A DNA stretch of 30,040 nt from Saccoglossus kowalevskii (taxonomy: Eukaryota; Hemichordata; Enteropneusta; Harrimaniidae). The stretch spans positions 141,348-171,387 of the forward strand of contig NW_003138337.1 in assembly GCF_000003605.2 (NCBI RefSeq), in the 5' to 3' direction. The position numbers were made by a program, and so were the translations under genes. Below the pieces are notes generated by a model. The model was given only the letters and a program-made list of their open reading frames with translations, did no database searches and was not told the DNA's origin. Every line of letters begins with the position of its first letter. Position 1 is the first letter of the stretch. Shown here one piece after another: positions 606 to 28,247 of this stretch.

Positions 606-611
606 TTTATT
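606..611 (-). terminator. Poly(A) signal AATAAA overlapping the PIDD-like stop codon
   Basis: The TAA stop (607-609) lies inside AATAAA. No other AATAAA or ATTAAA is seen on this strand from here to base 1, so the 3' UTR may be very short, or continue past the window edge. Confidence 0.4.
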
Positions 612-908
612 GAGTCGCCGCCACCGATGACGATGGTGATAGTAACTTATAAACTTCGAAATCAGCTCCATTTTCCTTCAGTTCGTCTCGTAACTGCTGC
701 CTTATTGCCAAAGCGCCCTTTTTCTGGCGCCAGTGGTGTAACATATAGAATATTTGTTGTGTCATAGACACCGCTTTCTTAAACCTATCCATTTCGTATT
801 GCTGCATGTCAAGTTTTATCGCAATAGTTTCCCAACTGTTGTCCATTTTTTCAGCTACCATTATAAGCTCCCTGTCTGTGACTATTTCGTCCGGATTTCT
901 TGGGGCAC
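607..908 (-). CDS. PIDD-like exon 12: death domain and C-terminus
   Basis: Acceptor TTTACAG before 908, phase 1; open to TAA at 607-609. Residues such as ELIMVAEKMDNSWETIAIKL, MLHHW and ALAIRQQLRDEL give the six-helix death-domain pattern (W..IA..L, I..ML..W, A...L...L). A Ser/Ala-rich tail of about 15 residues follows. Family role: homotypic death-domain contacts such as PIDD with RAIDD or RIP1. Confidence 0.88.
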
Positions 909-2750
909 CTGTAAACAAACACGAATGAAATAAGCCGTCGAATTAACAGCAATAATCACACATTAACATTTAGGGGCCTTTCTATTCAATTTCAAATTAA
1001 ATTTAAAATGTATTAGCACTACAACTGAAGGATATATGGAGTAGTGTATTCCTCATGTTACATGTGCAAACGTAAATAATTACATCTTTATATACGCGAA
1101 GTTTACAGTTAATCAGTGTTTCTCGTGTAGAAATCCGTGTGGTGGTACAATTACCCATGGTCCCATGCATTGCGGCGCAGAATGCAGCCGAGCACAATAA
1201 TCCAGGGACAATAGTGCTGTACGAAAATATATTTACCCTGTCTTCCAACTGTTTATAAAGCTGCCAAGCAAGTTGAATTTCCTTACGCATAAACAAATTG
1301 CGCTTAATTTGCGTTGACGTTACTACCGATTAGATCACGTCGATAGGATTTGTCATGGTAATCGTGTTTACTAAACCTGCCCGAAATTGGACTTCCAATA
1401 TTCATCCTTTTGTGCTCGCTAGCCAACACTGTGCGTTTGTGCGCATGCAGACGCAATTAGAGTGAAATGTTTGTTTGATTATAATAACACGTGCTGTAAA
1501 TAATTCTTATTAAACAGGTTTCATCATGTTGTTTGCTGATGAATGTCCCACATAGAATACCCGAGTCTTCGGATTAATAAATAGTTTTGATTTCAAGCCT
1601 ACCAGTCAACTGATATTCATTCTGACATATCACGGTACTATAGTTGAAATAAGAAACTCTACATTAGACTATATCGTGGGTGGGTGACGGAGGGGGGGGG
1701 GACGGATAGGATATACTGATCACACATACCTCATAAAACTATAAATTACCCAAAATTCTCCACGATTGGATATTGATTCCTAAGGAGTCTGCTGTATCTG
1801 TTTACATAAGCACGTTTTGCAATGTGTGACTAGAGTGTCTAATTTACCTCAAAGTCTGGCAAAAGGCAATTTATAGAAGTGCTAAAAATGTTGTTAAGCA
1901 CGCATCACCTGGAAGCCAAAAATACGCATATCTTTGTTTCATCCATTCAAAGACATCCATTCAAAAAACTCGGTGCCGGGGATTTCTTTAGAACACCATG
2001 CAGGCATTGTCTATTCCCATGCTTATTGTCAAATAGAAATTCGTATCTAACGATAAACAAAGGCGCCGCGCCTCAAATTGGAATGTACAGAATTGCAGTA
2101 CGCGTTCATTATAAAAACAAATCTGGACAGACGATTTATATGCACCGCCCTACCACGGATGGTCGTACGATGGATGAATCGCAAAACTGTAAGGGTTCAT
2201 GAACTTATAATAATATATATACTTATAATAATAATATACATCTAATCTATGTAAGCTTGTGTGTACATAAAATTGTGGGTAAACATAGGTATTGTGTATT
2301 CGGCTTTATAAGAAGATCTAAGAACATGGTTGTCTGTGATGGCGGGGCTTCGGCTTGCGCATGTCAATTTATTCACTGTAAGTCGACGTTCAACATACGC
2401 TATTTTGAGCCGTCGCTTTGGGGGTGGTCATAGTGGCGTGGTGAGGTACACAGTGTTCTAAAGTACTTTGCCGCGTTCGTGAGTTTAAATCTCTTGTTGC
2501 TTGCATATATAATCGTTACATATCTGTAAATGATTTCTAATTATCTATCAATCACATCATGGTACGGCACATTTTCATTATGATAATGAAAATGTTGTCG
2601 TCATTCGGTACAATCATGTATATGCGGCAACCTAAAACTAGCCCAAGGGATAAACAATCACACACCCTCAAAACCTACGAACCCACACGCGCCAAGAATA
2701 AATCGAATTTGCACTGATCACATGAATCCCTGATCCCAAAGCATTGATTA

Positions 2751-2843
<93 letters not shown>

Positions 2844-5800
2844 ACTGAACATACCGTTATGTATATTGTGCGGATACCCAGTGTCCTGGAAATAAATATA
2901 TAAAATTGATCAATAAACACCAAACTTTACTCATATCACCTGTATCGTAGACTCATCTACGATGTAATAGAAAGACAGTACCTTGATGTGGGTCTCGAGT
3001 AATAATAAACGGAGAATGCAATACATGATATATATTTGGAAACAAGGCTTCACATTTTTCATAATCTTAGCTATTTTTCATATCAGGGAAATGACAACTA
3101 CTAAGAACCATAGAATTAAAATATAAACTAAAATGCTATTGTCTTAAGTGAAAGAGAAGTTATTTTGAAAGCAACTGGGTTTGAAATTGATCCTGATTCA
3201 TGTGACAACAAATACTATGAAGTGCTGATAGCAAAAAATGCCAAAGCGTCTGTTATTTATTTGTTTATGTTGTGTTTATATAACGATGTCAACCCACACA
3301 ATATATTTTGTTCATTGCATCATATCATATTTAGGTAAAGCAAACATTAGGAAGTTGGGAATGAAATTTGCAAACCTTTGGAATCTTTAACGGGAATGTG
3401 ACCGTATCCAAACTTCCTACTATCTGGAAATCTATACAAAAGCTCCAACAGGGAGAGTCATGTTCTAGTGGTTTCCATTCTTCTATATGTACAGTCTAAA
3501 GCGGTTATTATTTCTTCAGGTTGATCATTATTTACCACATCGATTGCGACGCTCCAGTTATTATCCCTGCTTTCAGCAAATGTGTAAGACGTTTTCGTAC
3601 TAACAAGTATGCACTTATTACCAGGAACTGCAATTTCTATGCTCTCACCATTTTGCATGTTGAAGCTATCACTACACGGTTCTCATGATACGCATGATAC
3701 GACTTCTCTTTCAGACTTTCCACTCGCAATTCTGCTTGAGAAGATTTAACTATATTCAACGACAAGATCCTCGGCTCCTGTATTTGTTGCATGACAACAA
3801 TCTTTACCGAGTATAAGCCGATTATCCGTGCCTCTTTATACTTCTGCCATTTTTCGAATAGGTAATTAGGGTTAATGTTTCGCGGTGCAGCCACACATCC
3901 TATCCTATAGAAATTAAAAGGACACAATTGTACTAAAAAACAATAGATTAAAAATAACCTCCGAATGATCGTGAAGCTAAAATATGTTTATAACTGAAAA
4001 CAGGAGCCGTATATGACGTTCGCAACAAGCATTCAGTCTTTAGAAGTCACTTCACGTATTCTGCTGTTATAATTATTAATTCCAACCGTTTTGCTATTGT
4101 ATTTTCTAGACTCTTTGGTATAACGCAATATTTACAGTTCATTCAAAATTCAAAATTACTTTGGAATTGCGTTGATACAGTGTAACAATGTCGGCGCCGG
4201 TAATGTCTTGTCAGTGCACAACTCAGCCAAAATAAAAAGCATGATTATTCGAACAGTGGTATTACAAGACTGGTGGAGGGTAATACATTTGGGGCGAAAG
4301 TAAATTATTTGGCTGTTGCCATGTCAGCGGTGAACCAGAATGTTTTTTTCCGATTATTGACGGTATGACCTGCTTTCCAAGTATGAACAAAATCAGCCAA
4401 ATCAAAAAAAATCACAGAAGAGTTAAAAAGACGTTCCTGGTAAACAGTTACCCCAAAGTATCCCAAGTTTAAGGGCAATCCTAGCGTAACGGATCGCCAA
4501 TTATACATCTGATCATTTGTCATAACTTAACTTCACAGATCTTTGAATATTTCTAACAACTTATGATATTTCAAAATTAAGGATCAACGATTAGTGAAAC
4601 GGGTTTTATGAACTGAAACCAAAATTTAAAATGTGCAATTTGTGTAAAGAATTACACGACGTGCGACGATGCTTGTGATGAGTTGGATGGATATGAATGT
4701 TCGTGAACACACGAAGAGTATACACACTATTTGACGCCGTGAAACACAAGACAACATCACTATCTATACCATTACAATATTTTAGGGAGTTTATTATAAG
4801 AAATATCAGAATGAACATGTCTTAAAATTTGAATTTGAAAAGTTTGAATTATAATTTAATTTTATGGAATTGCATCTCTCAAAAAGGTAAATGTGTAGTT
4901 GAATTATGACTTGTTTCGACAAATATTTGTGCGTGTCAAGTTGTGACAATAAGGATATATCACAGATACTCACTCTCTAAATTCGTTTCCCCTGTATTGA
5001 ATTGTGTACCTCTTTTCGGTTCTCTCGATTATAACGTTCCCTTTTGTATCCTCTGTTATAAAAGACACCGCCCTAGAGACATTATGCTGGTCCGTTTGTG
5101 TGGATGGTGATGGGAGACAAACTGTCGCATCTTCTGACAAACGAAATCCTTCTGCGTTGACAACAGCCACTGAATGACCATAGTGGATATCATTCGTCCT
5201 CGATAGGCAACAGCGGAGTCTGGGTCTGGAGTATGTACCTAATAATATAAAATTTGACATCATGTATTCAGAATAGACAGTCGTGGATTCTCATTCGCAA
5301 AAAAAAAGAAATAATAATAATATGTTTTGACCTTTTGTTTCTCTAGTTTACACCTACATTAACACTCGTTGTTGTTGGTTGTGGAACCGCATTTGGACCG
5401 ATACTTATTGATACCCCGGGTCCAGCTATGGATTGAAATGTCGTCCCTGATCTCGTTACTGTGATCGTCTCTGATAAACATTCGGAAGTTGCAATGAACC
5501 TGGTCAGATTACTAATGTTTGCCTTCACACCAGTGTCAATCTTTGAGAAGAAAAAATTGTGATTTTAAATGAAGTGAAAGTCTATTCAATCAGTTAACAG
5601 ATCAATATACTGTTAATTGTAGTATACAAATATATTCCGATCATCACAATACCTGTTCCGTGACAAGCTCCGTCCAATTTGTACTTCCATCACTCGTCTT
5701 GAGCTTTACCTTTCTCGATCTACTGTTGATACATTGGAATATCAAATTTACTGAGCCGGCGAACTCATAGTCAGGCGTCATGGTGAGTATATCTGATGCT

Positions 5801-8800
5801 ATTTGCTCACTGGTGTCAAGTTCATATTTAACACTAGAATCTTGAACAGATACACTAGAAACTGCAATTTCCTTTTCCAATACAACACTATGAGGTAGAA
5901 CCTCTAAAGAATATCCATCAAGTAAGATATGTAGTTCCGGGTTCTGCGATGAAAAAATATTGTTTAACAATATATACATATCATAGCATAAAACGAGCCA
6001 ACGGCATGACATGATGATGTGGTACATACCTGTTCATTTGGCAGTAGATGAATAACTCGACTTAGTGTGGAACTGTCATCATCTGTGAAAACAAGTTATT
6101 GTATCAACATGTATGCAGCCACTTATTTGGGGGTTGATGAGTTTAACTTGTTTAACTTAAATTAAAATAATTTTATGATATATTACGCAACCTTTTGACT
6201 TGAAGTATCTTTTGATTTCTTTTATACCATGTACACATACACTACTGGGAGGTTCCGTCATTTCATCCGCATCGAGGGAAAAGTTTTCCAATTGCGATAA
6301 TAAATTTATCTGGATTGGTAATATTCTAATCTTATTCCCTTTAACAGTCAGCATTTTCAAAATAGTCAAACAACCTAAGAGAAAACAATTGAAACGATTA
6401 TACAAGAATTATCAACAAAATATACGCATCTTCACTGTTCATGTTCTGTTGACGAAAATCCGTAGCCAGTTGTTGTTTGCATGTCATACTGCAAGAACTC
6501 TTTCTAAATTGTCCACATCAAATGTAACGGGCAGCGAGTTTACGCATATCTTTTGTACAATTAACAAACAAAATTGAAAAGTCAACACTTACCAATGGTT
6601 GACGGAATCGAAGTCAACTTATTGTCCTCTATCTGCAGTCTCACCAGATTGTGTAAATTCCCAATAGTTAAAGGTAACTCAGTGATTTTGTTGTTGGATA
6701 TATATAGGTTTTTATATTGGCAAGGCTACCAATTTGAGCTGGAAGTTCAGTCAACTTATTCTCTGCTATGTCAAGCTCGAATAAATTGAATAGATTTCCA
6801 ATGGAAAGAGGTAGTTGTTCTAACAAATTGTGCGACATTTTCAGTGTCTCTAGGTTAGGGAGCTCACCAATTTCATCCGGGATATTTGATAAAAAATTCT
6901 GACTAATATGGAAATCTCTTAGATATTTGAGTTCCTCGATTGATGGTGGGATGCGGTGAATGAGGTTTTTCGACATATATGGCTTTTGTAGATTTTGAAG
7001 CATAATTATGGCGTCTGGGAAACTTTCCAAGTTGTTGTTACCAATATCTAGATATTGTAATTGCGGACATTGTATGTCGTTTGCTGAAATTATATTGATG
7101 TTGTTGCCAAATAGATCCAATTCTTTTAAAGTGGTTACATTTGAGGGGAATCCTGTTAATCTATTGGTTCTCATTTTTAAGCTGACGAGATTCTCAAGCT
7201 GAGTAACAACATGTGGAACCTCAGTGAATGCATCCTCTGACAAATTGATGTCTTCAAGATTAATTAATTCAGCTATCTCTATAGGCAGTGACGATACATT
7301 TGGATTCCCTCCAAGATGAAGACTTTTTGCATTTTCGTGTTCATTGATTAATAAGGGAACAAATTCATTTGAGTGCAGATCGAGTACTTCACTCTCTGGA
7401 TTACAGTTTTTCAGTAATTCTCTTTCTGTTGATAAAACAGAACAAAACACATAATGTTTTATTATGTAGAACAAAAGCTACTGACGAGAGCTCTTTAGAT
7501 GAAATGTGAATAGATGTAGGAGAAAATATGAAAGAGCACTAAATACACTAAGGGTTGAAAATGTGCGTTTTGGATCCATGGTTATGTCAGTTCTATTTTA
7601 GTAAATCAATGAACTAATCAACTTAACTTGTTTGCCAGGCATTAGCTATTACATATTATATCTCATAGTTATGTTATCCCTAAGAGTATTTTAACAAAAA
7701 TTATTGGCCACTTTGTGGGGCGAGCTCTAGTAAAAGACAGAGGCGAGGAGTGCAGATGACTCTTACCTGACCGAAGTACCATGGCGTACCCGTTAATTCC
7801 AGTAAACGTGCGAATAGGGGAAAGGAAACAAAGATTTCCTATGAAATAGATGAGTTTTAGGTAGTGTTTTCTGTAAGATGTTCAACAAAACACAAAATAT
7901 TGAAAACAGTGGTTATTTCGACAGATTTCTTTTGATTTGGTAATAAATATTTTTGACGCATATCTTGTGAAGACACGAAGGACTTCAGTCATTTTTTTCC
8001 TAAAGCATTCAGCTTTTAATTAAGGAGAAGCCGGTTTTACCCAGTTTATATAGTTTGCCTTTTGTGGATTCTTTTTCCGTCTAAATGTACCTAGCGCATT
8101 CAGATTCAAAAAGCTTAGAACATGTTTGTCTTGGATAGAAACTTTCCTAAAGAAGTTGACTATAAATTGGTAGAACAGCGCCTAGTGTATTAATACTTAT
8201 TCCATTAATTAGCTTGATATTGCTATAATGCTATACATTCCTACATTCGGTTAAAGTTAGTAACTTAAATTAGAGATAACATGTCATTGGCACTGTTGTT
8301 GGTAACAACTCAGTTAACTTCAGTCGTTTTTTTCACTTTTTACCTGAACCAAGTGTATTCAGGTAATACTAGACAAATATATTACTTCCTTAGCAAAAAA
8401 GATGACATTTATTTTCATTGTTATTTTCATCATGAACTCATGTTGCGTTGCATCATGAAAGTTGGGATTTTAAATTGGAAAACGAATAAATTATTTGAAA
8501 CGTCATATCATTTTGTGTGGCATTAATGGTTAGCACTCCTCACCGTGAGTCACGATTTTTTTTTTACAATTTCAGCTGTAGCATAGCGTTGCGTAGGGTA
8601 GTATATGGCGGGATTAAACATATACGCACATCACTTCGCCATGTTACAGTTACAGTATTTCAACATATTTCGAAACGCAATATATTATTTTTGATTATTG
8701 TAAGATTATAGTTTATGTATTAGGGCCAACTAACACAAGACTTATATACTAAATTTATGCAGCTTGAGAAATAGTTTAAATAGTTTAGATGAAATATGAG

Positions 8801-11800
8801 TTTAAAGTTAATATTGTGAGTACCCAGAATTCGGTTATGTTGTTATTGCATTCAAAACACACGACAGTAATCGCCATATTTACCCTCTTTGTTCCAATGG
8901 TCCACGAGAGATTCGACTCCCTGTTCAGCAGCATATTTAACCTCACTGTCATCCAGTTTGCCACCAGTGACTTTAACAACCTTCAAAGTAAAAATCCTTT
9001 TGATTTCTCGTGGTAGCTGTTTCAATGGGTTTCTCGACAAGTCCAGTTCTTCCAGCTGTGATAGCAGTCCTGTTAAAATGTTGAAAAAATTACGGTGTTT
9101 TAGTTAGCCTGTTGGACATAAACACAAATAACATATACACTAATACAGTAAGTATGACAATAATCAAAAAATAACTTATCCAGTTTACTTTAAGTTGAGT
9201 TTATAATCTTCGATATAGTTATTGAGGATCAGCGTTGTGTACAAAAGATAGCTTTTAGAACTAAAAGTTGTAAAAAAAATTGTTATGATTTCGAGTAATC
9301 CGAAAATACATCAGCTTCCAGACTATGTTCCTTTCATCCACAACGGAGAAGACATTTGTTGCAAAATATGTTTCTAATATTCTTTTGAAACCCTTTTTTA
9401 TCGATGACATTCGGAACAAAGCAGCTAATCAATTTTCCAGTTGCTTATGAATATTTGGGAAAATACAATGTTAACTGGTTCGAAAGTTTGCTGAGATTAC
9501 TTAACTTGGCTATAGATATTTGGCTCTACAAAGGTTATGTCTGCTATTAAACGCACATTGGCATTGAATTCGCATTGGCAATTGTCCGCCAATGAAAAAC
9601 CTAATGAATGTTATTATTCACAATAAAAGGTCCTTTTCATCCCACACCTACTTATATAAATAGTACTAAAACAACTTACCCACAGATGAGGGAATTTCAA
9701 TGATCTTGTTACTGGACAAGTCTAACACCCTTAAACTCAGCAGTTTACCAATTTCTTGAGGTACAATTTTTATATCATTTTCTCCTATATACAGTTTTGC
9801 TAAACATGGTAACTCATACACTGTTGGAGGAAACTCGGAGAAACTGTTATTAGAACATGTCGAACTCCTTGAGATTTGTCAGATTGCTTAGCTGACCAGG
9901 GATGGTACGAATCAAATTATTGTGGGCATATAATATAATCAGCTGACGCAATTTGCAAATTTCTATTGGTATTTGTTGAAACTCATTGTTTGCAATATTG
10001 CACTCAGAGAGATTTTCAAGCTTAGTAAAGTTAGAAGGAACGGTTCCCAATTGATTATTGTGTAAATCGAATATTTTGAGCTGTTGTAATTTACCAATCT
10101 TTGATGATAATTTTCTTATTTCATTCTGTGAAATATTTAGCTCTTCAAGGTGTATCAAGCAATCTATTTCGTTAGGAATATTGGTCAACTTATTTCTACT
10201 AAGATCGAGTTTCACTAAGGGGTATTCTCGCGTGTTGGAGACGGTAATATCTTCGATCAAGTTTTTGGATAGATCAAGCTCCAGCACTTTACCAATATAA
10301 GCTGGGAATTTCAACAACAGGTTGTTAGAAATACGTAGTCTGTGAAGACGTTCAATCTCAAATATATGTGTAGGAATACTCCGAAATATGTTATCGGATA
10401 GGTCAAGGTCTTCGAGGTCCCGTAGTTGCAATATTTCTATTGGTATGAATAATAATCTATTTTTAGAAAGGTTTAATTGCTTCACTTGATTGTACCGGGC
10501 GATGAGTGATGGTAGGTAATCTAATTCCCTGGATACCAGACGTATTTTCTTTTCCTCTGGATTGATGCCCTCCAAGATTCTGAGCTCTAATAGATAAATA
10601 AACGAGCAATATAAAATGACATACACACATGGAATTCGTTAATAAGCAGACGCATACTTTAATACCGTCTTCCATATCTCAATATATGTTGTAATTTTAA
10701 ACAATATATCACAAGAAAAAAAAACATATACCCTGTTCTTTCCAGTAACCTTTTATACCATCCAGTCCGAGATGAAGTACATGACATGGGACGTAGTTTA
10801 TTGGTTTTTTATCGTAGTTGAATGTCGCCAAACTTTCCAAACTTTGTATGTCACGACACAGACTACTTAGTTAATTTCTGCTAACATCTAGTTCGCGTAG
10901 TTTGGAAAGATATCCTGTAAGTTTATAATGAAATAATTACCTAATCAGTATAGAAAAAAATACACTAGATAAATTACTGTTAAAAACACATTATCATTAT
11001 GATTTTATTTTAGAATTTAAGACCAAAACTGAAAACATTTCAGCTATCCTGGTTTTCTAATAATACTATCTTTATAGAAAATGTGCTTTGTTCATTAACT
11101 TTTGCATTATATTACTATCATAAGCACGGACAAGTGTATGAGGCCTAAACACTGGCTCTGAGAGTGGATATGTATATTGAAGAAATCTGGCAGTTTGGCA
11201 TTTCCTTTCCATTGTGGGTGCCTTCTTGTTTTGAATTTTGTTCAATTTATCTCACTATTGAGTCAATTTGTGGTTGGGTTCATAGTAATTTATTTGTCCC
11301 GAACATCTTTATCAAATGTTGATAAATATTGAATTTCCCACATTCCAATGCGCTATTTTAATGAAATCACGAGTACGATATTTGACCTGGCCGCGACGTA
11401 CAGTAAATTCCGCCAGTGACTATTTTGATGTCTTCCATTCACCAACCAATACGTGCTATTTGATCTGCGCAATTCATCATCTTTGTTTAAATGGGACCCA
11501 TACTTTGCGCATGCGTGGCGCGACGACCACAGCCTTTTAATATGTCTTTCTCATTTATCAAATGGCGTTCTTTTATTTTCAAGTCTCATATTAACATTAA
11601 CGTGAGAAAGATGCTACTGTTTGTTACGTATGAACTGCCGATTACCAATCATTTTCCGTGAACTTATTTGAACATTTAAACCTGTAAAGTTGAGTAATTT
11701 TGCCATTTATTGCATAATTTTATTTCGGTCACACCATTTATATTGTAATGTATAAGGAGTAAAAGTAAAAATTGTTCATAACCACAAATATCCTCAGACT

Positions 11801-13317
11801 TGAATATGCAAATTAGTCACGTGTCGATGAATTATTTGCCTGTATTTTAGCGGCATTCGTGAGACAGAGTCTAAGAGCAAATATCAAACAATTTCTCATC
11901 TACGGTTAATCTTAATTTTTTTTTTAGAAATTTAGCTATTTGTCAAAATATCTTTCTGTGTTGATCAACAAAATACAAAACATAATTATATTGCTTCAAA
12001 AAACACCAAAAACCATTATCTGTAGCGTGAGGAGACTTTGAAAATGTTGACAGTGTCTTTCGCAAGGAAATTGCGCCAAAAGAAACAGTGCAGTATTCTT
12101 TAAACTTTCTAGATCCACTTTTCACAACCGAATTATACTAATTTATTTTATGCACTTTTCACGGTAATTTGAGCGCTACTTCAGTATGTTCCACTTGTCA
12201 CAGTAATAGAACTCCGACATTGCTAGGACTGAGGGGGCGCATAAACTTGTTACAGGTCACGTGTTACAAGTAATGACTCGGATTATATTGCACCTTATTC
12301 ATATAAAAAACTGAATTCGTGCTGTGTGCTGTATATTCTGCCGGTCGATATTTTCGTCAATGATGCTGTCAACATTCACATTGAATAAAGTGGCTCTTTC
12401 GTCGGACCTATGCATGTTCGTATAGCAGCGGTTCCACAGACAATGCCCACATTTTGGATCTCTCGGTTCTAATAGTCCAAAAAAAACTTTCAACAAGCAC
12501 GACACATAATTTTGACAACTGTTTAACTTCGCTATCATTCCTGTATATATGCAACTGTTTTTTCTCATTTCTCTAAAAAACTGGTTGCTATCATTATGGT
12601 AACATTCGTTGTTGTGTAAGCCTCAGTTTAATTCGTAACATTTTTCCGCAGGATACACCGCATCATTCGTGAAAATAACAATGCCAGGACGTTCTGGACA
12701 CAAGATGGCGTGTAGCATAATTATATTCACATACACTGATTTACCTATTGTAGGGGGTATTTCTTTGACCGTATTATTTGATATATCAAATATCACGAGC
12801 TGTTTCAGCTTGCCAATTTCCATTGGAATTTCTTGAAGCTGGTTTCTATCTATTCTCAACACTTGAAGGTTCCCTAACTCACAAATTGAAACTGGGATCT
12901 GGCGAATATCGTTTTTGGATAGATGCAATAAGGTCAGTTCTTTCAAATTTTCTATCTCCAATGGTATTTCTTGTATTCCACATCCTTTCGCTTGCAGATG
13001 TGTCAGGAATTTTAGTTTTCCTAGTTCAGGTGGTAGATTCAGTTCGTTATGGCTAATTTATAACCAGGTCAATTGCCAAAGACCGAACACACAAGAAGGT
13101 ATTTCACTGAATTCATTTCTGCTCAAATCCAGATATTTCAGTTTTCTCAACTTGGAGCATTCTTCTGGTAATGTGGTGAGTGAATTATCGCAAAGATTCA
13201 GGTGAGAGAAAACTGAATACTCCCCGGTATCCGACGACAGGCTTTGCAAAGATTTGTTGTAGACATCTATTTTATTGCTGGAATAATCATAACCAAACTC
13301 TTTTAACGATGTCATAT
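607..13317 (-). CDS. PIDD-like gene: three LRR blocks, two ZU5-like domains, UPA-like region, death domain (12 coding exons)
   Basis: Seen: twelve minus-strand exons with GT-AG borders and matching phases (12745-13317, 10732-10914, 9680-10586, 8884-9069, 6593-7425, 6192-6374, 6030-6082, 5653-5943, 5354-5540, 4974-5238, 3493-3904, 607-908). Corrected for three one-base indels they give 1,458 codons. Domains by residue: about 36 LRRs in three blocks (1-251, 252-615, 616-954), ZU5-like 1 (~975-1090), ZU5-like 2 (~1090-1215), UPA-like (~1220-1355), death domain (~1360-1445). Known: LRR-ZU5-ZU5-UPA-death domain is the order of PIDD1, a cytoplasmic/nuclear scaffold that recruits RAIDD/caspase-2 or RIP1/NEMO through its death domain. 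Inferred: a death-domain signalling scaffold. Odd: vertebrate PIDD has one LRR block, and the self-cleavage HF-S motifs are not seen. Two in-frame TAA codons and three frameshifts break the reading frame, so it is a pseudogene, a draft with base errors, or recoded. Alternative: the LRR blocks belong to more than one gene. Confidence 0.82.
909..3492 (-). other. Last intron of the PIDD-like gene
   Basis: 2.6 kb, AT-rich, holding a long (AT)n run and a ten-G run near 1691. No coding exon with conserved sequence seen; an unrecognised small exon between UPA and death domain cannot be excluded. Confidence 0.6.
2753..2841. repeat. (AT)n microsatellite, about 44 units
   Basis: Uninterrupted alternating AT. 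Such runs are often length-polymorphic and prone to assembly error. Confidence 0.98.
3493..3904 (-). CDS. PIDD-like exon 11: UPA-like region (one-base frameshift)
   Basis: Acceptor TTCTATAG before 3904 (phase 2). The first part reads GCVAAPRNINPNYLFEKWQK and onward; the second reads NGESIEIAVPGNKCILV to ITALDC. They lie in different frames that overlap near 3637-3658 and join cleanly as STCKNGESIE if the plus-strand T run at 3651-3654 had five Ts. The only phase-1 donor at the 3' end is ACT|GTACAT, which is weak, so that border is less certain. Confidence 0.65.
3905..4973 (-). other. Intron 10 of the PIDD-like gene
   Basis: 1.07 kb, AT-rich, no further feature seen. Confidence 0.65.
4974..5238 (-). 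CDS. PIDD-like exon 10: rest of second ZU5-like domain
   Basis: Acceptor ATTATTAG before 5238, donor GTGAGT after 4974; phase 1 in, phase 2 out. It contains NAEGFRLSEDATVCLPSP, the usual ZU5 'G..F..+..V.L..P' strand pair, and ends KRYTIQYRGNEFRE. The donor shares a TGA with the intron, so the splice is needed to stay open. Confidence 0.72.
5354..5540 (-). CDS. PIDD-like exon 9: ZU5 boundary and start of second ZU5-like domain
   Basis: Acceptor CTCAAAG before 5540, donor GTGTAA after 5354; phase 0 in, phase 1 out. It ends the first domain with ANISNLTRFIATSE, the place where PIDD1 has its first HF-S self-cleavage motif, and opens the second with GPGVSISIGPNAV, close to the ZU5 core (GVxLxIPPGA). 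Confidence 0.72.
5653..5943 (-). CDS. PIDD-like exon 8: first ZU5-like domain
   Basis: Acceptor ATCGCAG before 5943, donor GTATTG after 5653; 97 codons, phase 0 both ends. It encodes beta-rich sequence with GYSLEVLPHSVVLEKEIAVS, PDYEFAGSVNLIFQC and a closing TSDGSTNWTELV. This matches the ZU5 layout (early LxxPxxxV, a mid-domain P..F...V.L.F, a late W). The assignment also rests on position between LRRs and death domain. Confidence 0.72.
6030..6082 (-). CDS. PIDD-like exon 7: short linker exon
   Basis: Acceptor TTTCACAG before 6082, donor GTATGT after 6030; 53 bases, phase 1 in and phase 0 out. It encodes an acidic/serine-rich linker then LSRVIHLLPNEQ, joining the LRR part to the ZU5 part. 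The fit of both splice phases is the main support. Confidence 0.7.
6192..6374 (-). CDS. PIDD-like exon 6: third LRR block, capping exon
   Basis: Acceptor CTCTTAG before 6374, donor GTTGCG (weak) after 6192; 183 bases, phase 1 in and out, no stops. It encodes the last LRRs (LKMLTVKGNKIRILP) and the cap VCVHGIKEIKRYFKSK. The VCxxGIxxIxxYF pattern is typical of LRR-domain C-terminal ends in signalling proteins. Confidence 0.82.
6593..7425 (-). CDS. PIDD-like exon 5: third LRR block, long exon (one-base frameshift)
   Basis: Acceptor TCAACAG before 7425, donor GTAAGTG after 6593. It starts (E)RELLKNCNPESEVLDL and holds about thirteen LRRs. The frame is lost at a five-T run on the plus strand (6709-6713): the two flanking frames join cleanly as SLANIKNLYISNNKITELP if the run had six. 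The exon is 833 bases; 834 would keep the phase-1 symmetry. Confidence 0.88.
7426..8883 (-). other. Intron 4 of the PIDD-like gene, between the second and third LRR blocks
   Basis: 1.46 kb with no LRR-like or other recognisable coding sequence. If the LRR blocks were separate genes this is where one boundary would lie, but I see no obvious gene end. Confidence 0.55.
8884..9069 (-). CDS. PIDD-like exon 4: second LRR block, capping exon
   Basis: Acceptor TTAACAG before 9069, donor GTAAAT after 8884; 186 bases, phase 1 in and out, open throughout. It encodes the last LRR of the block (LEELDLSRNPLKQLPREI) and a cap ending GVESLVDHWNKE, aligned with the exons at 10732 and 6192. Confidence 0.82.
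9070..9679 (-). other. Intron 3 of the PIDD-like gene
   Basis: 610 bases, AT-rich, nothing else recognised. Confidence 0.65.
9680..10586 (-). CDS. PIDD-like exon 3: second LRR block, long exon (one-base frameshift)
   Basis: Acceptor CTATTAG before 10586, donor GTAAG after 9680. It starts ELRILEGINPEEKKIRL and carries about thirteen LRRs. The frame breaks near 9850-9857: LKEFDM is followed by TTC TAA TAA, while the next frame continues NNSFSEFPPTVYEL through to the donor. The exon is 907 bases; 906 would keep phase 1 in and out, as in its sister exons, so one base looks inserted (AA at 9854-9855 is the likely site). Confidence 0.85.
10732..10914 (-). CDS. PIDD-like exon 2: first LRR block, capping exon (in-frame TAA)
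   Basis: Acceptor TTACAG before 10914, donor GTATAT after 10732; 183 bases, phase 1 in and out. It encodes the last LRR (LRELDVSRN-stop-LSSL) and a C-terminal cap ending GLDGIKGYWKEQ, the same kind of cap as in the other two blocks. TAA at 10871-10873 falls on a variable LRR position. Confidence 0.72.
10915..12744 (-). other. Intron 1 of the PIDD-like gene
   Basis: 1.83 kb. Contains a locally CpG-rich patch (about 11380-11530) with an NRF1-like TGCGCATGCG at 11506-11515 and an ACCAAT near 11443; an internal promoter is possible but unproven. No coding exon recognised. Confidence 0.5.
12745..13317 (-). CDS. PIDD-like exon 1: first LRR block, long exon (in-frame TAA)
   Basis: Acceptor AG at 13318-13319, donor GTAAAT at 12744. 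The first ATG (13313-13315) is two bases into the exon and begins MTSLKEFGYD; I take it as the start because the best upstream splice-donor candidate (13900) would bring in-frame stops. About seven LRRs follow with the LxxLxLxxNxLxxIP consensus. A TAA at 13058-13060 interrupts the frame within a repeat (LTWL-stop-ISHNEL), and the frame continues perfectly after it. The exon ends in phase 1 in mid-repeat (EIPPTIG). Confidence 0.82.
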
Positions 13318-14212
13318 CTAGTAAATAACAGTAAAATATCAGATATTAGCACGACCCACTGAAGTTTATGACGTCATCACAGCAGATTGTTCGAAATAGA
13401 GTAATTTCATTATTGAATAGCTGAGCCCTGTATCATGCACACTGCAAACAAGTTTTAACTTCATTACCAAAACTACCCAGACCCAATATTAGACGTAAGA
13501 ACTAGAATAGATTAAAATTCATAAAAAAACGAACGAATATCCTGTTCGTTGTAGTGAGAAGACATATAATAATATCAAAACCTAATACCTCGTTTTTAAT
13601 AGGTCAGGTGAAAATTTACTCAGCCAAGTGAACTGATTATTAATGGTATTTTATGGTAAATCGATTGTACAAACAAATAAGTTGGAACAACTGTGCGGAA
13701 CGTGAAGTTTTAATCTGTTAAAACATTTAACGTTTATTTAACACCCCCCGGTGAAAAATAATCACAACTGTACAGACATGGACATGACTCACAGGAAACC
13801 ATGTCTCAATGGCCAATTTCGTACCTAACAGGGTATATTGTATTAAGTCATTCACAGGTGAATAAACAGCAGTCATAGAATAACTTGAAACTGGCTTACC
13901 TATAGACTACTAGAAGTTTGCGACACAGATATATTGAGTCAATGTTCCAGTCGTTAAATTAAAGTACTCATCTATTGCAGTTACCCACCAAGCCACCCAC
14001 TCAAAACTAACACTGGAAAGTAGCCAACATTGTATCCGGCTCGTCGCAAAATGGTGATCCGGATTTTGAATAAAATGTACTTGTTGTAACATGTTTTCAC
14101 TAATAAAAAGCTATTAAATATTGTGTAGCGCATTGCGTTGGCATCTTGAGAACTGTGTTTGTTGCATTGGGGTCAAAGGTGTCTAACAAACAAGTGACCC
14201 ACATGAGTGACC
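13318..14212. other. Intergenic or 5' region of the PIDD-like gene
   Basis: Apart from the possible non-coding exon, no gene seen. Confidence 0.5.
13900..14092 (-). other. Possible 5' non-coding exon of the PIDD-like gene
   Basis: A strong donor (CTATAG|GTAAGCC) lies at 13899/13900. Spliced to 13317 it would place the ATG of MTSLKEFG just after the junction. In-frame TAG TAG just upstream means it could only be 5' UTR. The right-hand limit given is arbitrary. Confidence 0.25.
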
Positions 14213-20454: not shown

Positions 20455-23400
20455 CTTGAAGAAAAAACACATTTTACTATGATTTCTTTTGAACATCTGA
20501 GAAATGGTGGATGATTTTTTATGATATATTATTCTTCTTCTTCATACCCAGATTAATTCATGACTTGCAAACAATATACTGTAAATATACTGATATACTG
20601 TAAAAAACAATGTGACCAGACGCCAAGGCCGTCAGTACAGGCTGTATGTAACATTTAAATAGATCATTATAAATACTTAGTAATCCATATTAAACGACAA
20701 GACAATGAAACTGAAACACGGACCGGAAAGATTCAACACGTGTTAGCATACAGTATATTGAACACATCAATACATGACATCCTTTTTTGGATTACATATT
20801 TATCCTCACATACATGATCCTTTTTAGATCCATTCCGCATGTATACAATGACCTCGACCAATGCTACCATTAGCCCAATAACGGCTCCTCCGGCGAGAAT
20901 GTAAAATATCCCAGCGATGTTGCTTAGTCTTAGTACGTTTTGGCCACTAATGCTAGAGGTAGAACCACTGGAATCCAATGCGACTGACAGCCACCATTTC
21001 CTTTTTAAGCCCAGGATAAACCCCTGCTCTCTGAGTTGCAGAATATTCAGCGAGAAATCATCTCTAAATGTTGCCCCTCGTGGAAAAGCGAGACCATAAC
21101 CTTTACTGTCGAATGGCGAACCTATAACCACCAAGTCACAGTCAGGTATCGGATTTCTGTTCGTGAAGAAGGCATTGAATGTGGAATCCTGCAGAAAGGC
21201 ATAGTTCTCGGTGCAAGCACGCCTTACTCCTTCTTCGTTGGATGGAACAAGGGGACTTGTTTCTGCAAGTTTCATAGCAGCCCACATTGTCTTGTAGGGT
21301 TCTATCTTCGAATCGCGAAAGAATGACATTGTTTGGGTACTTTCTGTGCAACCATAGCTTATTGTCGTCTGTTTCGCGAGATCAGCTACAGAATCAACTG
21401 GAGTATCGAGTTTTTGAACAGTTAAAAACGCCGCCATATTGGCAGTGTAACTGGCTATGAAAACGAGAACAAAAAACCACCATGTACCACTGATTATGCG
21501 AGCTGAGTACGAGTATGGCGAGAACTGCGACCCCTGCTGCACAAAAGCGCTGAATACAAACCATATACTGTTGACCAAATTCAAGTTGGTTGCCTCGTGT
21601 TTAGAAACTGCGTCACGACGTGATAAGTGGTTCGCTTCGTAGGGGCTAATTCGGTTGATCAGTACAAGTAGAAGACTAAACACAATCAACGCACCACAAA
21701 CACATAACCACATTTCAGTCGACATTGGACTTAAGAAGCTGAAAGGGTCTGGTGGCGAGGGTTCAGGCTTCCGCATGAGAACATCGGTACCAAGGAACAT
21801 ATACGGTGCTGAGAAATCAATGACTTCTTCGCGAACCGAACTAATAGTTAGACCAGCCATAGCTACGTCGGCCTGTAAATGCAACGGACAAAAATGCAAA
21901 TGAGGTTTCAAATAAGAATTTTTGATTTCTGGAATCGCAGGCAACACGTGAGAACCCCTAGTGACGAACCGCTGATGTCGTGAATAAATGACAATTATGG
22001 ATGGTCGAGACAATGTCACTTCCTTTGTTAGAATGACACCCAAACACCGAACATAAAGACAAAGTACAACTTGGGAATGACTTTCGATTAAACCACCTAT
22101 GTCACATCATCGATTTATCACCAATGACAGGTGATTCAAAAACTCTCAGTGAGTGATTAGCCGGACAAGTCTATTTATTTAGAATATAAAAGATATACAG
22201 CTTACCTAGCCATCAATCAATTCACGTACCATGCCGTTCCAAGATCCATTATCTAATTGCGCACCGTACTTTCCATCAGGAACAATGTACAGCTCATATT
22301 GGAAATCCATTCGCCTCGACAGTTCCTCTATAAGATCATAAAGAAATCCATCAAACCGCTCATTTCCGACCAGGTTTTCGTAGTTATCTCTCCACATTAT
22401 GAAAGGGTCGTCGACAATTGTGCTTATTCTCAAAGGGTTATCTCCGAATGCAAAATCATAAATAGGTTTTTTGAGAGAAAATATTTTTAAACGTTCCAAT
22501 CTCGTCCAAGAACCAACCTGCAAGGTATATACAAAAAATACATGTTACAAATTGCCTTTTGAATCATATTTTGGATATTTATGACCAAATTACGTCATAT
22601 TATATCTATTTATATCGTAGATTTTTGGCATGTGAAGTTAATTGTTATATCACCTAATATTATAATCGACAAGGTACATTAGTTTAATGAGTCATTTCGT
22701 TTCACTACTAAACTGAAACAAACAAGTGAACAGTGGTTTTATATGAAAACAAGATTAAAAAAATTACAATTCTGTAATTAAAAGTTCATTAATTATATAC
22801 TGATAAAATCGAGATCAATTGTTATAACTACTGTATATGGTCCATTAAACCACAATGACAGGTATTCATAAATGTATTTACATGCTTCCTATTCAAACAT
22901 ATAAATAATAATTTAATACAAATACAATGATTGATTTGATTAAAAGAATTACAATGACTATTCTGACACAAATCCACATCCGGCGTGACATTAACATTTT
23001 TCAATTATATATATATATATATATATATCTCAATTCCATTGTATTTAATAGATTTTATACACATTAAATCTCTCACCAAATTAATAAGTGACTGAAATAA
23101 CCTTTTTATCAAAATATTTATGTTGCAATATGAAAATTAAAACTATCTATAAATTAATTGATCAATGTCAAAGAGAACTAATCACTACAAATAACATCTA
23201 CACGTCTTCACGAGGCCAGCACGAACATATTTGAAGCTTTCTAAGTGAAAGTGTGAGATTTTTGTTTTCCAATTTCCCAATATATTTTGAAGCGATGTTA
23301 GACCCTCCAGTTGGAACCGATATTTTTCAACACACAGCTGCATAATTACATACTATTTCATTTACATTTGTCTATCTTACTGCAATTAAATTATTCCATC

Positions 23401-26400
23401 GCATATGTTGACCATTAGTTTATTCTATAGTATAATGCCTTAACAAACTTAAGATTAGGGCAAATTCCAAATGTTGAAAATGGTGCAAAGGTTTTCTAAA
23501 ACACCAATATTTTGCTGTTTCGTTTATTACAACTAAATAAACATTTCCACTTTAGAAGTTAATCTTGTGGCCATTCGTTTATTTAATTTACTTAATAATA
23601 GACTTACAAGAAGTAATTTAAAATACGAATCTAATGACGGTTAATTTAGATATATTGAACGCAAATTGTTCAACTCGAAAATGAAATTCATTTTTTCCCT
23701 AATTTCATGTTCAATAATGCATTATACAATGAAATAAACGAATGTCAATGTTACGGATTTAAATGTCATTTAAATTTAAACTTACTGTGACAAGTACCCC
23801 GAATTAAATGAACAATTAAAAGAGTGGCATGTCTAGTCAAATTAAAAAGTAAAATATTAAATAGTTTTGTCATAGAAATTGTAACACACAATTGTGGAAA
23901 ATGTAACAACATGGGTAATAAAAATATTCACTATGTTGATCCAGCTAAGTAAAACCGGTTAGTTTTTTTTTACGATATGAAAATAAATCAGTTGAAACAC
24001 AAGCAAGCCGTCTGTCGCAACAAGATATTCTTCGAAATAATAACCCAGCGCATTGATACAAATTATAATTGCAGTGTGAAAAAATATAGGCACAGCCATA
24101 TCACATATTCACCCCATGTAAATGCATCCAATTTTATGATCACAAATATTATACTCACCACAACCAGTTCTTCATTTTGAAGTTCGATTACATCAAACGA
24201 ATCGTTACACCGCATTCCATTCTTTTCAAACGAGATGTAACCTGATAGACCTTGTAATTTCACCTGCAGATATACATATGTCATAATCATTGCAGAGTAA
24301 TTATGCGTCAAAGTCAAAAAGCATCAATCATCCTTGTATCAATACCATTACCGAATTGTATCTTTCAGATGTTCGAATTTAAGCAGGTGAAATAGACGCC
24401 AAATAATAAGATTACACCAAAATAGCTTAAATTCAATCATCTTAAAAATACTGGACGCACATATGTATTGTTCCCAATATATGTACAGATATATACGATT
24501 TTCCTTATAACAAGAAAAGAGTCGAATTCACTACCATTTTAAGCGCCTAGCCAATGTAAACTCACACTCTCATATCCAGATTGGCGGTTTCCGACAATGA
24601 AATGTTAAATCAGACCCCATCATAACTACTCTTAATTACTAAGCCATTAAAAGGTGATACATTTCACAATATCGAGTATCTGTCATGGATAATGAATCCA
24701 TTAATTATAAAAAACATCTACAATCCACGCATAGAGGAGCACGTATACTGGTTTTATTATTACTTCTTTTATGTAGGCTCTTAATGCATTTGATGTTTCC
24801 GGGACCAGTAGTTCAGTTGCAAAACAGTCATTATTAGAATTCTGGTGATCAATCATCCCAGTGTTAGATGTATAATCCCGTATAGCCGATAACACGATAT
24901 TAATGGCATCATAGACTAATATCACTTCGTAGGTATCAAGCTTATGATCTGAAAGTAATTATACGATTAGTGAATAGTAATAGCATTTTTAGATCAACAT
25001 GTCTTGTGAATCTATCAACAGCACACAGAGAAAATGATATGGAAACGTTGTAATACATGTTGCTGTCATCTCCAGAACGATAGCCCTGATTGAACGAGAA
25101 ATGGTAATATGCAATGAATTACATTTCTTCTCGTTCCGTAGTCACGTGCAAAGTATATACAATGTTTTACCTCCCGCGTCTTCGATGTTAGTGATACCTC
25201 CCTGGTAGCTTGGATGAAGTAAAGTCAAATTGGTGTTCGTGTAGATGTATGAGCTAAGATTCATGTAAGAGACGTCCTGTACGTAATACAAAAAATAATA
25301 GACACATACACGGTATGTCTTAATGTAGAAGAATGATCAGAACAATGAAATTTATATTAAAATATATATTTGGAAAATTGATTTCGTATTTAAACGGTGT
25401 CAAACAGTGAACTACTAATGTACATATATATAGAATTCTGTTCTATCATCAATTACTAAATTATCATCAATACATTATGTACTCACGACATTCGTAATAA
25501 TCCAGTGATATCGATAACTCAGCATACCAAGGTACACAGCCTGCAAGAAAGTTTACATTGGCACAAACTTTCATTCCAATATATTCTTTTTATAACAAAA
25601 TATCATAAAACACCATTTTCCATATAGACAGTGAGTTACCAAAAATGTCAGACGATAGCGTATTGGTCTTAACCCTGTATTTCATTGGATAACAAAAAAT
25701 CATGCAACATCCCCCACTGTCAAAATAAAAATATAATACTATTATAAAAAAAACTCGACTCAGGATGTCGTATACGTGTATCTATAAAGCCATACGCACG
25801 TGCGTGTTCGAATACCGCATAGCGCTATGCTAATAAGCAGACATGTGATTAAAGTCATACTAAAATAGTCACTTTGTGTTAAAAGCTGCAGATATTGGTG
25901 ATTTCCCACATTGTCACATTGGATTCTAAACCAGGTCAAAGCGAGCTAGCGCGACACACTATATGTTTCAACAAATATGACGATATAAGTTTTAGTTAAG
26001 TTTGACTAATGAAAAAAGAGAGACAGTAAACTCACATCTCGGAGCACTGTGGCGATTGTTGTTGTATGTGCGTGTATAATTATTTGTTGAATATTCATAG
26101 ATCGAATCTCTGCTAGCACTGTCTTGTACTTAAGTTCGTCTTCAGTGTTGTGGGTTTCCGAACCCAATTTCAGTTGCCTGGCGACTACTTTTAACCCTAC
26201 CTCTGCTGTCTTGGCAACCAATTCCATCTCTATGAATTAAGATATTGAACAGAATTTGGTTAATTAAACATTTCATATATTTGAATATGAAGAAACACAG
26301 AATAATAATATAAGGTTATCATCAAGGATACCTATGCACGAAGACAGCACAGCGGCAGTGTCGACCGACGCGCAACGAAGGTCGATGCGACGGTGTACTG

Positions 26401-28247
26401 TCTGAGTGCATACTTTGAGGTATCATCGTAATAACCTTATTATTATACACGTTTTTCTTCCAAGCATACATCATGGAAATGTCGAAACCCAAAATGTTTA
26501 GAACTGAATCAGCGAACTTCTTGTGTTGAATCCGGTCAAACTCTGGTGGCAGCCATGTTTGTTTTTATTATTTGAGGACAGTTACGTGCGTAATCATTCC
26601 ATATTTAGAATTCGCATTTCCTATTATGGTAGGATGAAAATACCCTGTAAAAATTACGGCATGCTGTAACTTATGGCGTTACGGTGATAGATGTATAATA
26701 ATATATATCTTTCTAAATAAAATTCTGCTTTCTCGAAATTGTGGATTTGTGTTTTTGCATATTCCTTTCAGACGAAGTCAATTAATAGAATGACATACCT
26801 GGATATGTTACACCGTCAAACACAATTGCTACCGAGTTCCATTCGTAAAACTTTATCAAATCAACAATTACGTCGGAAATGTCGCCTTGACTCGGTGATA
26901 AGTGTAAAACGCCGTCTTGTTTGCCGTTGTTTTCGTACACATAACTCTGAAGGACGGCAATTCCCATGGCTTTCGCTAAACTTATGGCACTGTCGCATAT
27001 ATCACTACATGAACTCGTGATAATAACTGCTACTACGTCATGATTTAATAGGAATTCGCAAACTGAAAAACAAAATCTACGTCAATATTTAACGTTCTCC
27101 CCACTAGTTCTCTTTTTTCATCACAAATTCATAAAATAGCCCCGTTTATAGTTTGTATTTTCCTTCAGAAGATTTGGGACAAAAATAGCCAAGTGTTTTG
27201 AGTAAAAACTGACAATTGACTCAAATACTGTCTATTGGCCCTAAAATTATGGTTGATTTCCAGAAATATTCAAGAAAATAAGAAAAAAGTACAGAAAAAT
27301 TCTTGCGAGAAAGTCTGGTGCTGAAAAGGTTAAGTAATAGACCAACATTCGGCCACGTTATGGTATACCTGTAATGTTTTTTGTGTGGATGCAACGAAAC
27401 ATTCTGGAAAGTTTAACAATTACTTGACCCTGAAGTAGCTTTTTACTGTATAGAATAAACCTGGTCAGCGCAAAACTGGTTTTTGATTTTTGTGTATGCA
27501 TGTTCATTTATAGAGTGGCTTCCATAGAGGACAAAATGACATATTTGTAGCCTGTAGCCGATTAACACCTCATTGCAGCGCGTAGATGTAGACATATTTT
27601 ATCTTAGAAATTCTGCATATTATTGTATCATCAGTAAAATTTATTTTCCAAGCACAAAACTGAATTCAGACTAGTTAAAATACTGATTTAGTATTTAGTA
27701 TCGGTTATGGTAGCAATTTAGGCTTGTACATGTGTGCCAATCGTATCGACATATTCAAGAATTTGTCGACAAAAGGAGGGACGAACTCGGTACCATGCAG
27801 GCATATACAGTGTTATTCAAAAAATAGAGACCACTTGTTTTACCGTCTATTGTTTGCCTTACTGGATTCTGAACAGATATCGTCAGTTCTTTCACTTGTA
27901 TATCATTGAGACAGGTATTGTTGTGCATTCTGATACATAGATCAGAAATGACATCATTGAAAAACGACAAATCCATTCGTTCATTCTCACCATGGATCCA
28001 GCCTGGAGACAAAAACTATACGATTGTCAATTAGTAAATACAATTATATTACAGCTCACGTTGAACAATTAAACGTATACGCGTAAAGCTTATATCATAA
28101 AACGAGAATATAGTGTTTGTAGTGCCCTCAAATTAAATTAACATGAACCAACTACTTACCCACCGAGACGGGCGTACAAAAGGAGACACACACAGACATG
28201 TAACAAATGAGGAGAAACCGCGAAACGCAGACCGTCATCGATAGCAT
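20212..28247 (-). CDS. Ionotropic glutamate receptor subunit, AMPA/kainate-like superfamily, divergent (11 coding exons)
   Basis: Ligand-gated cation channel subunit at the plasma membrane. Eleven minus-strand exons have canonical borders and agreeing phases and sum to 922 residues: signal peptide (1-29), amino-terminal domain (~30-380), S1 (~386-540), M1 (~544-563), pore loop M2 with QQG (601-603), M3 with SYTANMAAF (630-638), S2 (~641-800), M4 (~807-833), cytoplasmic tail (834-922). Length and order match the family. Retained agonist-site residues: Arg503 and Thr498 (after TI/REEVIDFS), Thr670. Changed: Gly496 where relatives have Pro, Gln669 for Ser, Asp718 for Glu; Asp is the NMDA/delta-type residue. 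An in-frame TAG (codon 489, 22206-22208) sits where relatives have Lys, Arg or Gln. The QQG pore site is the unedited Q form. Closest class looks like AMPA/kainate/delta relatives of invertebrates; subclass not decided. It could be a pseudogene if the TAG is real and not recoded. Confidence 0.92.
20455..20813 (-). other. Last intron of the glutamate receptor gene
   Basis: 359 bases. The short frame that continues exon 10 to a TGA at 20733 would be an alternative, intron-retaining C-terminus. Confidence 0.55.
20814..21872 (-). CDS. Glutamate receptor exon 10: S1 end, M1-M3, S2, M4
   Basis: Acceptor TTTACAG before 21872, donor GTATGTG after 20814; 353 codons with no stop. It holds REEVIDFSAPYM, M1 (WLCVCGALIVFSLLLVLI), the pore FVQQGSQ, SYTANMAAFLTVQK, DLAKQTTISYG, FDSKGYGLAFPRG and M4 ending VIVYMRNGSKK. 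Of the usual S2 cysteine pair only Cys734 is present. Confidence 0.95.
21873..22205 (-). other. Intron 9 of the glutamate receptor gene
   Basis: 333 bases between the two halves of the S1 agonist region; nothing else seen. Confidence 0.8.
22206..22517 (-). CDS. Glutamate receptor exon 9: S1 ligand-binding segment (in-frame TAG)
   Basis: Acceptor CCTTGCAG before 22517, donor TAG|GTAAGC after 22206; 104 codons, phase 0. It encodes GSW, TIVDDPFIMW, GNERFDGFLYDLIEELSRRM and DGKYGA, then NGSWNGMVRELIDG followed by TAG and the splice. The next exon continues ADVAMAGLTI, so TAG holds the Lys/Arg/Gln place of 'GKADIAIAPLTI'. Confidence 0.92.
   Translation of the reverse strand, partial: VGSWTRLERLKIFSLKKPIYDFAFGDNPLRISTIVDDPFIMWRDNYENLVGNERFDGFLYDLIEELSRRMDFQYELYIVPDGKYGAQLDNGSWNGMVRELIDG
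22518..24158 (-). other. Intron 8 of the glutamate receptor gene
   Basis: 1.64 kb, very AT-rich, with an (AT)n run at about 23006-23028. No other feature recognised. Confidence 0.75.
24159..24263 (-). CDS. Glutamate receptor exon 8: end of amino-terminal domain
   Basis: Acceptor TCTGCAG before 24263, donor GTGAGT after 24159; 35 codons, phase 0 at both ends. It encodes LQGLSGYISFEKNGMRCN and DVIELQNEELVVV, the family's 'GLTG.I.FD..G.R....+.+.+L' end of the domain. Confidence 0.9.
24264..24763 (-). other. Intron 7 of the glutamate receptor gene
   Basis: 500 bases, nothing else recognised. Confidence 0.75.
24764..24948 (-). CDS. Glutamate receptor exon 7: amino-terminal domain
   Basis: Acceptor CTTTCAG before 24948, donor GTAATA after 24764; phase 1 in, phase 0 out. 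It encodes EVILVYDAINIVLSAIRDY, the 'YDAV..+..A' helix of the domain, and ends LRAYIKE. Confidence 0.87.
25171..25276 (-). CDS. Glutamate receptor exon 6: amino-terminal domain
   Basis: Acceptor CGTACAG before 25276, donor GTAAAA after 25171; phase 0 in, phase 1 out. It encodes DVSYMNLSSYIYTNTNLTLL and ends NIEDAG. The NLS and NLT sequons are possible N-glycosylation sites. Confidence 0.85.
25487..25540 (-). CDS. Glutamate receptor exon 5: amino-terminal domain (18 codons)
   Basis: Acceptor TTCTTGCAG before 25540, donor GTGAGT after 25487; phase 0 at both ends. It encodes AVYLGMLSYRYHWIITNV, a clear match to the family's 'A...GM...+YH+I.T' motif. Confidence 0.9.
25541..26035 (-). other. Intron 4 of the glutamate receptor gene, with two perfect palindromes
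   Basis: Contains acgcacgtgcgt (25794-25805) and gcatagcgctatgc (25817-25830), 11 bases apart. Otherwise plain. Confidence 0.65.
26036..26229 (-). CDS. Glutamate receptor exon 4: amino-terminal domain
   Basis: Acceptor TTCATAG before 26229, donor GTGAGT after 26036; phase 1 in, phase 0 out. It carries VLAEIRSMNIQQIIIHAHTT, matching the 'L..I+......II.' strand of the domain, after a helix ending KVVARQLKL. Confidence 0.88.
26301..26447. mobile_element. Foldback (long hairpin) element in intron 3 of the glutamate receptor gene
   Basis: The two ends pair along most of their length: left aataataatataaggttat with right ataaccttattattatac, then gatacc with ggtatc, tatgcac and gacag with ctgtc and gtgcata, and an inner gtcgacc with ggtcgat. 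It is more GC-rich in the middle than the intron. Most like a small MITE or foldback repeat; a structured RNA such as a microRNA precursor is less likely but possible. No clear target duplication seen. Confidence 0.6.
26448..26798 (-). other. Remainder of intron 3 of the glutamate receptor gene
   Basis: Nothing further recognised. Confidence 0.7.
26799..27062 (-). CDS. Glutamate receptor exon 3: amino-terminal domain
   Basis: Acceptor TTTTTCAG before 27062, donor GTATGT after 26799; 88 codons, phase 1 in and out. It has VCEFLLNHDVVAVIITSS (the 'VC.LL...V.AII' strand) and LIKFYEWNSVAIVFD (the 'FY.W..VA.V.D' element), both usual for this domain. Confidence 0.88.
27063..27843 (-). other. Intron 2 of the glutamate receptor gene
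   Basis: 781 bases, AT-rich, no other feature recognised. Confidence 0.7.
27844..28002 (-). CDS. Glutamate receptor exon 2: amino-terminal domain, start
   Basis: Acceptor GTCTCCAG before 28002; donor G|GTAAAA after 27844; phase 1 at both ends. It begins GWIHGENERMDLSFFNDVI, the first strand and helix of the LIVBP-like domain, and ends VRQTID. I chose this donor because only it gives phase 1 and the join IDVCEFLL. Confidence 0.75.
28160..28247 (-). CDS. Glutamate receptor exon 1: start and signal peptide
   Basis: ATG at 28245-28247, a second in-frame ATG three codons on, then a hydrophobic run (VSRFLLICYMSVCVSF) typical of a signal peptide. Donor GTAAGTAG follows 28160, phase 1. A good acceptor (TTTGCTTCTCTGCAG) ends at 28286, so 28248-28285 may be 5' UTR of a spliced leader-side exon farther right. 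Confidence 0.78.

Follow-up and report, generated by a model that had tools for sequence, protein, structure and literature searches.

The window, that is, the whole analysed stretch of 30,040 bases (C2966:141348-171387) within a 572-Mb assembly of 4,830 contigs, contains a complete ionotropic glutamate receptor gene on the minus strand. The gene was rebuilt from its splice signals and comprises 11 exons and 923 codons including the terminal stop, of which 921 are sense codons, codon 489 is TAG, and codon 923 is the terminal TAA. All 10 introns are of the GT-AG type and all splice phases are consistent. The features of the window are as follows:

28160-28247, minus strand: exon 1 (gene model)
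27844-28002, minus strand: exon 2 (gene model)
26799-27062, minus strand: exon 3 (gene model; ANF_receptor match, E 2.6e-11)
26036-26229, minus strand: exon 4 (gene model)
25487-25540, minus strand: exon 5 (gene model)
25171-25276, minus strand: exon 6 (gene model)
24764-24948, minus strand: exon 7 (gene model)
24159-24263, minus strand: exon 8 (gene model)
24159-28247, minus strand: exons 1-8 with their introns, encoding the signal peptide (identified by eye) and the amino-terminal domain (gene model, ANF_receptor match)
22206-22517, minus strand: exon 9, encoding S1, the first part of the ligand-binding domain (Pfam PF10613, E 2.7e-22; gene model)
22206-22208, minus strand: in-frame TAG, codon 489, the final triplet of exon 9 (sequence, gene model)
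21873-22205, minus strand: intron 9, 333 nt, donor GTAAGC, acceptor TTTACAG (gene model, junctions of relatives)
20814-21872, minus strand: exon 10, encoding the end of S1, the channel pore (Gln at the Q/R site), the SYTANMAAFLT motif, S2, and the last membrane helix
20212-20454, minus strand: exon 11, encoding the C-terminal tail and the terminal stop (gene model)
610-13345, minus strand: gene region with leucine-rich repeats (LRR) and a death domain (PF00531, E 1.5e-6)

Two repeats lie on this contig: a long (AT)n-type simple repeat at 2734-2892 of the window, which is open in several frames (IYIYIY), and, in the flank at C2966:132000-141900, a TTLHYTTLHY repeat at positions 2794-3231 of that locus.

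Both the ligand-binding profile PF10613 and the pore profile PF00060 matched the gene above the cut-off, and solved AMPA and kainate receptors were its best matches. Exon 10 matched PF00060 (E 2.4e-43) and, in the solved-structure search, best matched GluA1 (E 1.7e-98), and S1 best matched kainate receptors such as GluK1. The gene is thus, as judged from its sequence, an AMPA/kainate-like receptor of the AKDF type, and it is intact apart from the TAG. It shares with metazoan AKDF receptors the amino-terminal domain, S1, a pore with Gln at the Q/R site, the SYTAN motif, S2, and the last helix, and differs from them in the in-frame TAG and in an intron displaced by one codon (described below). 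In a study of AKDF receptors, none of the Phi subunits carries Gln at the Q/R site (PMC6307864). Within window positions ~21310-21560 (minus strand), the pore sequence VQQGSQ includes the Q/R-site Gln and, four residues on, a Gln where GluA1 has Asp; an S2 stretch there reads STQT versus AGST in GluA1. The identity, coordinates, and phase given in a preliminary description of the locus therefore agree with the gene model, Pfam, and solved-structure matches.

Exon 9 ends with ATT GAT GGC TAG, directly followed by the intron 9 donor GTAAGC, and exon 10 begins in phase with GCC GAC GTA, as had been described from the sequence before. The TAG is the sole internal stop and the sole lesion in 2.8 kb of coding sequence with 10 introns, which bears out the earlier statement that all other codons are open and the other splice phases agree. 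The donor had been called perfect; it is good, but falls short of that in reading GTAAGC and in having T at position -3 instead of C or A. The TAG lies within a continuous domain: in the Pfam Lig_chan-Glu_bd alignment, exon 9 reaches profile position 76 and exon 10 restarts at position 79, and solved kainate receptors align without gaps over the exon 9-10 junction, with Arg in GluK1 at the TAG residue.

A donor that skips the TAG had been named among the findings that would overturn the description. Reading exon 9, intron 9, and the acceptor by eye, we saw no canonical splice that avoids the TAG: (i) no GT or GC donor immediately follows GGC; (ii) no acceptor lies shortly upstream of GCC; (iii) the codon for the residue is absent after the exon 10 acceptor; and (iv) use of the donor-like sites further upstream in exon 9 would delete part of VRELIDG in the binding domain. 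A tblastn search of the window revealed no second or alternative exon 9 (S1). Therefore, transcripts that use the GTAAGC donor carry the TAG. Intron retention was also considered as an escape and rejected; the TAG sits before intron 9, and more in-frame stops follow.

To place the TAG among its relatives, we used profile searches of the same assembly (22 matches for PF00060 and 25 for PF10613, best-scoring candidates only). In the 16 relatives that could be read at this residue, it is Lys (8), Glu (3), Arg (2), Asn (1), Thr (1), or Ala (1), and none of the 16 has a stop, Trp, or Gln at this position. The Lys and Arg that had been attributed to relatives are thus present, and the Gln is not. 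Half of the 16 have no intron at the junction. In all 8 relatives that do, the equivalent intron is placed exactly one codon further 5', and the codon for the residue starts the next exon. Both sides of this intron were read in the relatives on C3767, C1, C2887, C4525, C1572, and C354, and the acceptor side only in those on C50 and C1357; the donor alignment with the window took 5 of the 6 readable donors, C354 having been read separately, and the junction tabulation omitted one PF10613 match (C4731, L035), which has no junction. Compared with the relatives, the window gene has three extra bases right before the GT, and its acceptor side passes from ACAG to GCC GAC, one codon short. The codon count across the junction is therefore the same, and the intron appears one codon later.

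It had been proposed that a single AAG-to-TAG or CAG-to-TAG change explains the stop. A mutated exon-end codon tells only part of the story, since the 8 intron-bearing relatives carry the corresponding codon at the start of the following exon; the final step may have been a point change, and the boundary shift also needs explaining. An ancestral gene that still worked may first have shifted its boundary by one codon and later acquired TAG in this triplet; alternatively, the triplet may have been TAG from its arrival. The window gene is, on these alignments, a candidate for intron sliding, a process that has been proposed for Drosophila genes (PMC2891723) and that a mammalian study calls very rare, “if it exists at all” (PMC7730772). 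In the relative on C1357 (L010), a close one with 46% identity over exon 10, the acceptor near 6610 on the minus strand carries a tandem AAG-AAG (AAAAG/AAG) with a three-base ambiguity. A tandem of this kind could let a boundary move by one codon.

The remainder of the gene bears the marks of constraint. In a leave-one-out comparison, 40 columns were unanimous among the remaining relatives, with at least 5 of the 8 readable; the window agrees at 36 of them, and its 4 misses are conservative (V/I, A/V, F/Y, and M/L); lesion-free relatives reached 71-97% in the same test. This agreement indicates that constraint held until recently. No additional decay of the reading frame, which only an old loss would lead one to expect, was found in the gene, and the lack of a second lesion bounds the neutral divergence since loss at ~0.6-1.9%, a range that depends on the assumed indel rates. 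Together, the constraint and the lack of a second lesion leave three readings: a young loss, a wrong base, or rescue at the RNA level. A 901-base query spanning the junction matched only itself in the 572-Mb assembly, and no other copy, allele, haplotig, or recent duplicate was found; as the DNA search scores the best candidates only, this suggests a single copy and does not prove it. The disabling change thus lies in the only copy found in this one assembly. No relatives were confirmed in viral and prokaryotic contigs.

The best explanation, and in our view the probable one, is that the TAG is a real nonsense codon in the sequenced animal and marks either a null allele or a unitary pseudogene of very recent origin of an AMPA/kainate-like receptor. 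Such a change is an ordinary kind of event, since 361 of the 8,289 possible single changes in the frame (4.4%) create a stop; what sets this one apart is its isolation in 2.8 kb of coding sequence and its coincidence with the displaced intron boundary, the unusual feature of the case. We infer that the base is real in the DNA and that the TAG is not removed at the RNA level; the allele would then be young. Translation would end once the first half of the ligand-binding domain had been made, and the pore and S2 would be lost, which agrees with the truncation foreseen earlier. With 1,059 nt between the TAG and the final exon-exon junction, nonsense-mediated decay is expected and would presumably occur, and any protein product would be a membrane-less amino-terminal fragment. 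As in unitary pseudogenes and segregating nonsense alleles, a single disabling change interrupts a gene that is otherwise intact, and no second copy turned up. The gene differs from them in that it has no decay beyond one codon and in that its stop, read in one assembly, may not be fixed. Our literature search found no nonsense or pseudogenised molluscan ionotropic receptors, which is not a claim that none is in print. Two points speak against the null reading: the stop falls exactly in the triplet that the 8 relatives lack on the donor side, which is odd for a random change, and a local base error may underlie the TAG. The causes listed in the preliminary description (error, null allele, young pseudogene, readthrough, and RNA-level change) proved to be the right set, and the evidence below allows them to be ranked.

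An assembly base error, in which the true triplet is a sense codon and the gene is intact, is rather unlikely and is the alternative that survives best. A single isolated lesion in an intact, constrained gene is how one wrong base would look. The neighbouring LRR-death gene is interrupted, within conserved repeats, by two in-frame TAA triplets (13058-13060, 10871-10873) and by what look like two one-base shifts (near 9853, 6709-6713); it is probably decayed, or the sequence is locally poor, and its four apparent lesions could mean that the contig is poorly polished. Against an error, the two nonsense substitutions in this neighbour resemble real decay, which they suggest rather than indel noise, and nonsense errors without indels are rare because stops arise from only 4.4% of substitutions. 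The wider assembly also speaks against an error. The exon-10 aligned sequence of eight relatives (2,733 residues) has one stop, at a match edge, and 12 of the 26 HSP70 matches (1,097 residues) have three, all at match edges. Reading base by base around these stops and in another eight S1, PF00060, and HSP70 matches with stops, we found each stop at the edge of a match or in intronic sequence adjoining a splice site, some of the intronic ones being TAG acceptors. The matches read were, for PF00060 (7 of 22 stop-bearing), C1572 (twice), C1, and C1210, leaving out C1550, C3744, and C4731; for PF10613, C2887, C1572, and C3767; and for HSP70 (5 of 26 stop-bearing), four on C3049, leaving out one on C1729. 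In sum, ~11.5 kb of coding sequence elsewhere in the assembly is free of internal lesions, although matches found by similarity favour intact sequence. The assembly is therefore not generally noisy in appearance, and a base error is for this reason less likely than a real young nonsense allele.

It is quite unlikely that the splice model is wrong and that the mature mRNA lacks the TAG, either because splicing uses a non-canonical donor where the ancestral intron lay or because a microexon has escaped notice. The intron position of the 8 intron-bearing relatives, one codon earlier, would place the TAG in the intron, and the reported rarity of intron sliding (PMC7730772) also favours this possibility. 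Against it stand the sequence after GGC and the exon 10 start, as described above, which offer neither a GT/GC donor nor the residue codon; the window search found no further S1 exon either.

Rescue by A-to-I editing, in which UAG would become UIG, read as Trp, and the genomic stop would act as a switch, is likewise improbable. The triplet and its position are suitable. The A of the TAG is at donor position -2, like that of the mammalian GluA2 R/G site. The two sites also share a glutamate receptor gene and an exon end paired with the intron; they differ in that the pairing in the window is weak and not clearly above chance. In the predicted fold, the A is unpaired within a local stem that pairs the exon end with the intron. 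For the most favourable fold (75 nt), z was -1.65, and 12 of 200 shuffles were as good, so that even in the best case a stable exon-intron duplex around the A did not stand out; for a 91-nt fold, z was -0.14, and 82 of 200 shuffles were as good. When only the sequence outside the fixed arm was shuffled, p was 0.11 locally; against the shuffled rest of the intron it was 0.35. Equally stable folds occurred in 15% of 1,620 folding windows along the gene, and at 33 of the 84 remaining gene-strand UAGs the long-range pairing was equally good or better. The GluA2 R/G hairpin, used as a power control, gave z -8.2 versus -1.1 here with single-base shuffles. The predicted hairpin is thus not clearly better than chance, and these structure models neither support nor contradict editing, which we consider improbable. 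The absence of Trp at the residue in the 16 readable relatives also argues against editing.

Precedents for such recoding exist. A Fusarium study (PMC4817773) cites UAG as a triplet favoured by animal editing enzymes and documents in-frame stops that are rescued by conversion of UAG to UGG; in work on cephalopods, the UAG-to-UGG change is scored as recoding of a stop to Trp (PMC8382921). Like the PUK1-type UAG of Fusarium (PMC4817773), the window TAG lies in a conserved domain of an otherwise intact frame; by contrast, editing was seen in RNA in Fusarium, and here the structure models give no clear support for it. Among titles and abstract openings on editing of premature stops and on glutamate receptors, no such case was found. 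In a full switch, which we hold to be similarly doubtful, the splice-adjacent UAG, edited to UIG in the nervous system, would give a full-length channel with Trp solely at sites of editing, a secreted amino-terminal fragment would be made elsewhere, and the intron displacement would have made the site.

Translational readthrough of the UAG, yielding some full-length receptor, is the least probable. The frame downstream is intact and constrained, but the mRNA context is UAG GCC, which is not known as a leaky context (UAG CARYYA and UGA CUA are), and an efficient channel subunit produced in this way would be unusual. Editing and readthrough, even summed, make RNA-level rescue unlikely.

If real and segregating, the nonsense codon would offer a naturally occurring knockout of one subunit in an animal whose receptor family is large; if RNA recoding rescues the gene, a neurotransmitter receptor would carry a switch from stop to Trp. 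The one-codon offset of the intron relative to eight relatives is a candidate for the debated sliding of introns, and the window gene may show how a stop gets trapped at a shifting exon edge.
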